From: Bacteroidaceae bacterium
GTDB lineage: Bacteria; Bacteroidota; Bacteroidia; Bacteroidales; Bacteroidaceae
Assembly: GCA_017617575.1 (NCBI GenBank)
Contig: JAFZVY010000114.1
Location: forward strand, 1-42,512
DNA: 42,512 nt
Reading direction: 5' to 3'
Under the pieces are notes generated by a model. The model was not told the DNA's origin and searched no databases. It saw only the letters and a program-made list of their open reading frames with translations. The first letter of the stretch is position 1, and each line of letters begins with the position of its first letter. Below, in pieces: positions 38,829-40,746 of the stretch. The translations under genes and the position numbers were made by a program.

Positions 38829-38860
38829 AGTGTCTTATTGTGTGAAGTGTATCTATACTT

Positions 38861-38926
38861 TGCAAAGTTTTTGCAAACAGTTTGCAAGGTATGTGCAAGG
38901 TCCTTGCAAGATATATGCAAACATGA
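38861..38926 (+). repeat. Six TGCAA boxes at exact 11-bp spacing
   Basis: TGCAA begins at 38861, 38872, 38883, 38894, 38905 and 38916. Units read TGCAAAGTTTT, TGCAAACAGTT, TGCAAGGTATG, TGCAAGGTCCT, TGCAAGATATA and TGCAAACATGA. A seventh, out of phase, is at 38946. The boxes lie 45-100 bp upstream of the promoter of the secreted protein gene. Confidence 0.85.
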
Positions 38927-38960
38927 AAATCAAATGCCAAGTTATTGCAAAATCAAATTC

Positions 38961-38991
38961 TTGGTGACTCCGAAAAACACCCATATCTTTG
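38961..38991 (+). promoter_or_regulatory. Promoter for the secreted protein gene at 39080
   Basis: TTG (38961-38963), 20 bp, TATCTTTG (38984-38991), the housekeeping pattern. The following GCAGCGTCAAAAC is nearly the same as at the YbjQ promoter. Confidence 0.7.
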
Positions 38992-39079: not shown

Positions 39080-39598
39080 ATGAAGACTTTAATCAATTCT
39101 TTCGTTGTTGCTCTCGTAGCACTCTTTACAGTTTCTATCTCTGCTAATGCACAGAACAAGGATGGTAATACTCTTGAGGGAGTATGGATATTTGAAAAGT
39201 ATCATGTTGATGGCAAGGAAAATGCAACACTACCACGTGAAGGCTTATCTTCTGTTAAAATATATGGCAAGAATGGAGAGTATTGCTGTGCTCAAATTGT
39301 CAAGGATAATGGTAATGGAGTAATCAAGGTTAAGCCTCATGAGTATGGTACTTACTCATACAAGAATGGCAAGTATATGGAATGTGGAAGAGAATGTGGT
39401 GATGAAGCAATAATATTCACAGGTAAGAATTCTTTCAAGGGTCGTTTCTTAAATAGATATGAGTTTTGGGTTAGAAACACAAATTTCCCAGAGGAACTTC
39501 GTAAGCACATTCTTAATGCATGTAAGGCAGCTTGTGCCGGTGACTGGGATGTTAAGACACAGACACTCCTTAAAAACCATATTCTTTATAAGAAATAA
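39080..39598 (+). CDS. Small secreted lipocalin-like protein, paralogue of the neighbouring regulator's ectodomain
   Basis: 172 residues with signal peptide MKTLINSFVVALVALFTVSI (then SANAQ). The mature part looks like a small beta-barrel of the lipocalin-like/DUF4488 type: LEGVWIFEKYHVDGKE at the start, SSVKIYGKNGEYCCAQIV, then YEFWVRN. These segments align in order with the outer domain of the regulator encoded next (VGAWTLDKMIFQDGSE, TRCKVYDADSTYYCVELV, TEVWVRA), including one shared cysteine (Cys70 in both). A helix with two cysteines follows (CKAACAG). It has its own promoter, terminator and the upstream TGCAA array. The ligand is unknown. Confidence 0.8.
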   Translation: MKTLINSFVVALVALFTVSISANAQNKDGNTLEGVWIFEKYHVDGKENATLPREGLSSVKIYGKNGEYCCAQIVKDNGNGVIKVKPHEYGTYSYKNGKYMECGRECGDEAIIFTGKNSFKGRFLNRYEFWVRNTNFPEELRKHILNACKAACAGDWDVKTQTLLKNHILYKK

Positions 39599-39624
39599 AT
39601 TTGGTTAGATTGATAGTTTGGTTA

Positions 39625-39661
39625 GTTCACGGAGTAAATATTACTCCGTGAACATTTTTTT
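39625..39661 (+). terminator. Terminator between the secreted protein and regulator genes
   Basis: A perfect 13-bp stem (39625-39637 with 39641-39653) with a three-base loop is followed by seven Ts. Confidence 0.92.
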
Positions 39662-39695
39662 GTTGTACTACATGAGTGCTTTTGATATTTTTAGC

Positions 39696-39703
39696 TATAT
39701 TTG
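39696..39703 (+). promoter_or_regulatory. -7 promoter element for the regulator gene
   Basis: TATATTTG fits TAnnTTTG, 47 bp before the ATG; no -33 TTG. Confidence 0.45.
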
Positions 39704-39750
39704 CAATGTTTAATAAAAGGAATCTATACTTACTTTGCTAACTTATATAA

Positions 39751-40746
39751 ATGAATAAAACATTAAAAAACTTTGCTTTTGTAATTTCTTGCCTATTTAT
39801 ACAAGGATGTTCACATGGTGTTGATAGTAATAAGGAATTCAATATCGTTGGTGCTTGGACACTTGATAAAATGATATTTCAGGATGGGTCAGAAGTAAAC
39901 CCTAACCCTTCAGGTTATACTCGATGCAAGGTATATGATGCTGATAGCACTTATTATTGCGTAGAGCTTGTATCAAGAGAGGGCGATGTACGCATCCTAT
40001 CTCACGAGGCAGCCAAATTTACTCAGCATGATACCGTCTATATTGAGAATGGTCGTAAAACACCATTTAAGATTAAGAGCAATTCTGTCTTCATGACTAC
40101 TTTTGATGGCTATACGGAAGTGTGGGTTAGGGCAGATAAACTGACAGAAGAAAAGAAGCAGGAAATACGAGATAGTTTCATGAATAACAATGGTACTACT
40201 CTCAGTAACTATATCTCGAATGAGCAGCAAGAGAAGGAGAAATCAAAGTTCCTCATTATCTTAGGTAGCCTTGTTGCAATAATCATAGGAGGTTGTATAT
40301 ACCTTGTAATCACTCTTCGTGGCAAGCGTAAGGCACAGAAGGAGCTTCAGGCTATAATGGATGAGAATGCGAGCCACACGACAGAGATAAGTGAGAAGCT
40401 ACAGCAAGCGGAGAATGATTTATTTGGCTCTGACTATTATACATCACTCAAGAAGAGGGTCATGAAGGGCGATACGCTCAAGAAGGCTGACTGGGACGAG
40501 ATGTCGGCACAACTGAAGGAGGCATTTCCTAAGTTTGAGTCTCGTCTTTCATCTCTTTGCAAGATGTCGGATGTGGAGATGCAGGTATGTATGCTGTTGA
40601 AGTTGCGTTTCTCTCCTTCGGAGATTGCTACGGTCATCGTCAAGGATGCAAGTACCATCAGTTCCATTCGCGGACGCCTTTACCAAAAGGTATTTGGCAA
40701 GAAGGGTGGTGCAAAGGACTGGGACGAGTTCCTAAAGGGACTGTAA
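39751..40746 (+). CDS. Membrane-bound HTH regulator with a lipocalin-like outer sensor domain
   Basis: 331 residues. The N-terminus is a signal peptide with a possible lipobox (LFIQGC, Cys20). Residues about 28-130 resemble the secreted protein encoded before it. A membrane segment follows at about 167-189 (FLIILGSLVAIIIGGCIYLV), then a charged coiled coil (190-225), and a LuxR-like helix-turn-helix at about 271-315 (MSDVEMQVCMLLKLRFSPSE, IATVIVKDASTISSIRGRLY). The layout (outer sensor, membrane, coiled coil, DNA-binding end) matches Bacteroidetes one-component regulators that usually have TPR sensors; the lipocalin-like sensor is unusual. Lipid anchoring plus a membrane span in one protein would be odd, so the Cys20 prediction is tentative. 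Confidence 0.8.
   Translation: MNKTLKNFAFVISCLFIQGCSHGVDSNKEFNIVGAWTLDKMIFQDGSEVNPNPSGYTRCKVYDADSTYYCVELVSREGDVRILSHEAAKFTQHDTVYIENGRKTPFKIKSNSVFMTTFDGYTEVWVRADKLTEEKKQEIRDSFMNNNGTTLSNYISNEQQEKEKSKFLIILGSLVAIIIGGCIYLVITLRGKRKAQKELQAIMDENASHTTEISEKLQQAENDLFGSDYYTSLKKRVMKGDTLKKADWDEMSAQLKEAFPKFESRLSSLCKMSDVEMQVCMLLKLRFSPSEIATVIVKDASTISSIRGRLYQKVFGKKGGAKDWDEFLKGL

Follow-up and report, generated by a model that had tools for sequence, protein, structure and literature searches.

A widespread two-gene membrane module of Prevotella-type Bacteroidaceae pairs a transmembrane LuxR-type regulator with an exported protein of the same predicted lipocalin-like fold

Main finding

The 42,512-nucleotide contig JAFZVY010000114.1 of a Bacteroidaceae bacterium (assembly GCA_017617575.1), hereafter the window, carries a gene for a small exported protein (SEC) next to a gene for a membrane-bound regulator (REG) with a C-terminal helix-turn-helix (HTH) domain. 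Sequence comparison and structure models indicate that SEC and the periplasmic domain (ectodomain) of REG are homologous and share the same predicted lipocalin-like fold. The two genes probably form a membrane sensing module, and the pairing is widespread in Prevotella-type Bacteroidaceae. The original prediction, made from the window alone, had proposed that SEC and REG are a sensing pair, and this is now well supported, since the predicted folds agree and the two genes lie side by side in relatives as well. Our best reading, which we consider probable, is a two-gene loop driven by REG through phased DNA boxes, with feedback by SEC.

Homology and fold of SEC and the REG ectodomain

Several segments occur in the same order in both window proteins, as had been noticed earlier: GVW/GAW, K(I/V)Y, Y-C/Y-C-x-x-(I/L)-V and E-x-W-V-R. 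A BLASTP comparison of the two proteins alone, signal peptides included, gave an E value of 2e-10 with 25% identity over 147 residues, and a whole-genome search with SEC as the query returned the REG ectodomain at E 1.3e-7. Without the signal peptides, the Smith-Waterman score was 100, and none of the shuffled sequences (0/3000; mean 29.3, standard deviation 5.1, maximum 67) reached this value. Profile-profile comparison of 23 SECs with 34 REGs yielded a probability of 99.2 and an E value of 6.4e-20, which together with the shuffles rules out a chance similarity.

AlphaFold2 models of SEC and the REG ectodomain show identical strand order, and both contain an eight-strand barrel with GxW at its start, as in lipocalin-like folds. 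The predicted folds thus agree, as the original prediction had anticipated. Both domains matched the Bacteroides lipocalin-like proteins 4qrl, 4gzv, 5byp, 4i95 and 4iab and potempin E (8ehc, 8ehd), which have the same fold but just 10-21% identity to SEC and the REG ectodomain over the aligned parts. A PDB sequence search with REG gave no match, and one with SEC gave only 7 weak matches (E 0.28-0.6) and no convincing relative. Neither Pfam nor NCBIfam gave window SEC a match of its own; the Pfam profile Lipocalin_4 matches 6 of 23 SECs (best 6.7e-5), window SEC not among these, and Lipocalin_8 matches 3 of 34 REGs (best E 0.011). In a joint tree of 23 SECs and 34 REG ectodomains, the two groups formed separate branches (100/100) with one ancient split, which rules out a recent duplication within each genome.

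REG has a lipobox-like signal, the ectodomain, one transmembrane helix (residues 169-187), a long helix and the HTH, so that the membrane crossing and LuxR-like end described earlier were both found. Its predicted topology is single-pass, with a periplasmic domain and a cytoplasmic HTH, and it combines a DNA-binding domain and a transmembrane helix in one chain, without a receiver or kinase domain. The four-helix HTH fold is present at the C-terminus; the Pfam family GerE had no match to window REG at E 1 and was not among the listed 25 of 51 families for 34 REGs. REG may be lipidated at its N-terminus while also crossing the membrane, as its lipobox-like sequence suggests. A hydrophobic segment beyond residue 40 was found in only 1 of 71 SECs, which indicates a soluble partner without a membrane helix. 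C70 and C148 (window SEC numbering) are conserved in 71/71 SECs, with C148 modelled as part of the C-terminal helix, and a disulfide between the two is possible.

Conservation and distribution of the pair

We examined 80 named loci, the best 80 of 135 matching the SEC profile. Among their 83 SEC genes, 81 follow a REG gene on the same strand, with a median gap of 140 bp and a gap within 362 bp in 74 of the 81 pairs; a local accident of one genome is thereby ruled out, and the adjacency is conserved in relatives. The two SECs without an upstream REG are L182, which lies near a contig end, and L162, with no REG in the upstream 3 kb. Relatives have REG first and SEC second, so the window, where SEC comes before REG, is unusual. 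A survey of 45 genomes of the genus at E 1e-4, which has some records in common with the named loci, found 23 separate SEC genes in 21 genomes, 22 of them adjoining REG and the remaining one cut by a contig end. At family level, matches to the SEC profile were found in 77 of 399 genomes and 11 of 30 genera, the 77 including some that match by the REG ectodomain only. In an order sample of 295 genomes at E 1e-30, the out-of-family matches belonged to three genomes from a single genus; G519 and G699, both outside the family, match along the entire profile and carry the pair with boxes. A first contig scan with REG alone as the query found no relative. A conserved third gene was rejected, since even the most frequent cluster of neighbours was present at just 11 of 74 loci, with no constant position.

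REG also occurs without an adjacent SEC. This is the case for REG of G019 (L024) and for a group of 14 loci (clade A, L009-L022), often next to a glycosyltransferase-like gene (Pfam tested for one). In five tested members of clade A, the product of the downstream gene is exported and matches AhpC/TSA or thioredoxin. No separate SEC was found in 13 of the 14 clade A genomes; G017 has the pair elsewhere.

Phased boxes and promoter register

The original prediction had also pointed to a phased array before SEC, and six copies at exactly 11-bp spacing are indeed there (38860-38920). Beyond that description, two more boxes lie nearer the promoter (38935 and 38945), and the last of these stands where the family usually has it. 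Two three-box patterns from the array occur nowhere else in the 3.38 Mb assembly of the window genome (162 contigs, about 86% complete), which rules out a genome-wide repeat in this genome.

Of 74 loci, 66 have boxes in 11-bp phase ahead of SEC; for REG, the count is 54 of 68, truncated or end-of-contig REGs having been left out. The corresponding figures are 1 of 72 for control stretches taken downstream of SEC and 0.6-0.7% for shuffles in dinucleotide blocks. In a survey of box spacing, for which mononucleotides were shuffled, the distance between boxes was exactly 11 bp in 116 cases, followed by 44 bp (33 cases, from the last box to TTTGCA of the -7 element) and 22 bp (13 cases). The -7 elements were recognized by the consensus TANNTTTGY (PMC12632263). 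From the last phased box to TAnnTTTG, the distance in SEC promoters is 36 bp in 60 of 68, including the window, 37 bp in four and another value in four; in REG promoters, it is 35-37 bp in all 52 with both features (52/52). An activator touching RNA polymerase would need a fixed register beside the -33 element. The fixed register of the boxes beside this element therefore suits an activator that would contact RNA polymerase.

The terminator between the genes had been taken to show that SEC and REG are expressed independently. This stands insofar as a promoter of its own is usual for each gene, but both promoters carry the same kind of box in most relatives, and SEC and REG therefore look co-regulated there, judging from promoter sequence.

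The boxes are TGCAA, TGCCAA and, in a few loci (L160, L178, L179), TGCGA, with the phase kept. In the recognition helix of REG, the variable residue, two residues before a conserved R, is T or S. Box type was associated with this helix across 82 rows (Fisher p 1.5e-9, uncorrected for kinship), from which exact duplicates and rows with fewer than two phased boxes had been removed, near-duplicates between named loci and genus genomes remaining. With correction for kinship, 6 independent pairs were left, of which 4.4 on average agreed and 0 opposed, and the direction was kept. Prevotella communis E15-14 has two pairs with differing box types, TGCGA (L160) and TGCAA (L165).

Possible division of labour between the two lipocalin-like domains

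Across 71 pairs, i.e., 70 named loci and the window, pairs with a gap >420 bp or a late-starting REG match being left out, the mean identity was 60% for SEC, 41% for the REG ectodomain and 64% for the HTH. A signature HE..Y..YxExGR is present in 69/71 SECs vs 1/71 paired REGs, the latter being the window's own. The shorter YxExGR occurs in 71/71 SECs and 3/71 paired REGs. The full signature was also found in one paired REG outside the 71 (L064) and in 8/14 clade A REGs; a relaxed motif (Y.E with GR or RxR-like endings), which is wider than YxExGR and hence not on the same scale, is present in 14/14 of clade A. The better conservation of SEC, the distribution of the signature and the one ancient split in the tree suggest that the conserved function passed to SEC, and that the REG domain in most pairs acquired a different role, perhaps as a docking surface. 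The signature is absent from the unpaired REGs L005 and L024, which speaks against a simple rule, and the window itself, unlike this pattern, keeps it in both proteins.

Proposed mechanism and alternatives

In the loop that we propose, REG would sit in the inner membrane with its lipocalin-like domain in the periplasm and its LuxR-type HTH in the cytoplasm. Active REG would bind the TTGCAA-type boxes, which lie in 11-bp phase directly before the -33 element, and would activate SEC; in most relatives, though not visibly in the window, it would also activate its own gene. The SEC protein, bearing the conserved version of the lipocalin-like domain of REG, would be exported and would act in the same sensing loop, most likely by handling a cue in the periplasm and exerting feedback on REG, much as CpxP or ToxS does in its own system. 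We infer the binding of REG to the boxes, activation rather than repression, contact between SEC and REG, the ligand and the sign of the feedback; a SEC that restrains REG, by analogy with CpxP/CpxA, and a SEC that REG needs, by analogy with VtrC/VtrA, would look the same in sequence.

Several points weigh against this loop. The boxes could serve repression instead. The REG promoter of the window has no array, and the window helix (SI-RGR), which stands with seven TGCAA-type boxes and one TGCCAA box, departs from the trend between helix and box type. The kinship-corrected sign test for this trend gave a median p of 0.125 (range 0.06-0.5), and T-type rows were C/G-rich in 10/61 cases at a cut of 0.2 and in 1/61 at 0.34. 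P. communis contains orphan SECs (L207, L208) without REG or phased boxes, in which PQEYG replaces PHEYG. Moreover, genomes of the genus g24 have up to 26 promoters (G272) of the same architecture, in which TGCAACG-N4-TGCAACGC boxes keep the same register relative to a -7 TAnnTTTG. The 77 genomes that match the SEC profile include none from g24, and three tested g24 genomes contained no REG-type HTH at E 1e-5. Some other protein can therefore use such boxes, and the architecture alone is no proof of REG. The strict two-box promoter pattern used for g24 had no match in the window genome, because the proximal pair there is mixed (TGCCAA/TTGCAA).

The promoters of g24 would fit a different account, in which the boxes belong to a different, global regulator and SEC is not under the control of REG. 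However, the window genome has the three-box arrays at this locus only, most relatives have boxes before SEC as well as before REG, and the type of box differs with the REG helix (without significance once kinship is corrected for) and between the pairs of one genome, so we regard a global regulator as quite improbable. SEC might also be merely an effector under a neighbouring activator, such as a scavenger of hydrophobic ligands or a potempin E-like inhibitor, with the shared domain reflecting ancestry only. This would agree with potempin E and several Bacteroides lipocalin-like proteins being the top fold matches, and with the exported AhpC/TSA- or thioredoxin-matching protein that lies downstream of the five tested clade A REGs instead; the near-constant pairing and the joint tree with its single split suit a loop better, and an effector role alone seems unlikely.

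The remaining alternatives concern how SEC would act. The original prediction had suggested a decoy or competitor, i.e., a plain ligand sink that competes with REG for the same ligand and gives negative feedback without contact. The homologous domains of the same fold, the putative REG operator at the SEC promoter and the motif shared by both window proteins are in line with such a role. Nearly all other paired REG ectodomains, however, lack the conserved motif of SEC and are more diverse, which makes a common ligand site doubtful; given also the better conservation of SEC, the decoy is possible but not favoured, and we rate its chances as low. A split co-sensor, in which SEC is the ligand-binding subunit, docks on the diverged REG ectodomain in a VtrC/ToxS-like way and is required rather than inhibitory, has a somewhat limited chance of being correct. 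Beyond the REG-driven loop, we tentatively propose, as an idea still short of even likelihood, that the pair belongs to an undescribed class of split sensors. Here a duplicate of the lipocalin-like sensing domain of a transmembrane LuxR-type activator would have become a separate, exported protein; this soluble copy would sense (or shut off), the membrane copy would dock, and a DNA box code of its own would insulate pairs within a genome.

Comparison with known systems

VtrA/VtrC and ToxR/ToxS consist of a membrane-spanning HTH regulator with a periplasmic domain and an adjacent lipocalin-like periplasmic partner, encoded by overlapping genes, and VtrC is needed by VtrA (PMC9214523); the HTH of VtrA is of the OmpR type (PMC5693285). 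As far as these accounts go, SEC/REG resembles both systems in having a single-pass HTH regulator and an adjacent gene for a lipocalin-like periplasmic partner. It differs in that their winged HTH is N-terminal and OmpR-type, whereas that of REG is C-terminal and LuxR/NarL-like, and in that SEC is soluble and exported, the genes do not overlap and the promoters are usually separate. SEC is, furthermore, a paralogue of REG's own ectodomain. A membrane helix of the partner's own is a defining trait of co-component systems. Because an N-terminal OmpR-type HTH and a membrane-anchored partner with an overlapping gene are absent, we do not file SEC/REG as a co-component system; REG is a transmembrane transcription regulator (TTR) in a new form. 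TTRs are one-component, membrane-bound DNA-binding regulators that are frequent in Bacteroidia (PMC10269533). REG shares these properties, but a lipocalin-like N-terminal ectodomain with a LuxR-type C-terminus, or a soluble paralogue, is not described for TTRs in the available part of that source.

CpxP is not known to be related in fold to the PAS sensor of CpxA. In the envelope stress response of Escherichia coli, the gene for the periplasmic protein CpxP is a target of the Cpx system, and CpxP damps CpxA (PMC11078701). The anatomy of the SEC promoter would, by analogy with what that account gives, suit CpxP-like membership of a regulon and feedback on REG. CpxA differs in being a histidine kinase with a PAS sensor, whereas REG is a one-component HTH regulator.

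Among the papers listed by open-access literature searches, none described such a SEC/REG pair. Prevotella-type bacteria are abundant in the rumen and many gut communities, and to our knowledge few extracytoplasmic signals are known for them. The module is widespread and has a predicted operator, promoter register and partner, which makes its binding, regulon and ligand directly testable. It would show the lipocalin-partner logic of ToxRS/VtrAC in the opposite topology, with the regulator's own paralogue as the partner.

Features of the locus and further observations

Table 1. Annotated features of the SEC/REG locus in the window
Feature	Position	Strand	Basis or remark
Distal array (putative operator), six boxes of TTGCAA type, spacing exactly 11 bp	38860..38920	+	three-box patterns unique in assembly
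Promoter-proximal box pair, TGCCAA (38935-38940) and TTGCAA (38945-38950)	38935..38950	+	last box 36 bp before -7
Predicted SEC promoter, -33-like TTGG at 38961 and -7 TATCTTTG at 38984-38991	38961..38991	+	sequence and consensus
SEC, exported lipocalin-like protein, 172 residues	39080..39598	+	reading frame and coordinates confirmed
SEC signal peptide, residues 1-24, end ...ANA/Q	39080..39151	+	A24 and Q25 invariant in 23/23; probable cleavage site
SEC lipocalin-like barrel, residues 34-132	39179..39475	+	
Intrinsic terminator-like hairpin with T-run between SEC and REG	39625..39653	+	
REG, transmembrane one-component regulator, 331 residues	39751..40746	+	reading frame and coordinates confirmed
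REG signal peptide with lipobox-like FIQGC	39751..39813	+	C20 conserved in 97% of 71 REGs; putative lipidation
REG periplasmic lipocalin-like ectodomain, residues 30-129	39838..40137	+	
REG transmembrane helix, residues 169-187	40255..40311	+	hydropathy; helix at this place in 71/71
REG C-terminal LuxR/NarL-type HTH, residues 266-331	40546..40743	+	

The window genome has a second REG-type regulator (G000:C159:81721-82719, L005) with no SEC beside it; no phased boxes were seen nearby, just single TGCCAA-like ones. Tandem duplications of SEC beside one REG were found at L127/L209, L139 and L166, and in G017 of the genus set, the REG beside SEC holds an in-frame stop. Ten of the box promoters of g24 (e.g., L230, L233 and L250) were viewed by eye, and all ten sites precede genes with signal-peptide-like N-termini. 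In clade A, boxes lie directly after REG, by eye partly in a terminator-like hairpin GGAGTTTGCAAA..TTTGCAAACTCC, and in the five tested members ahead of the gene for the exported protein. At L070 and L071, a phased TGCAA array precedes another exported thioredoxin-like gene away from REG (assigned by Pfam for L071 and by eye for L070), which is a possible second target in these two clade A genomes.
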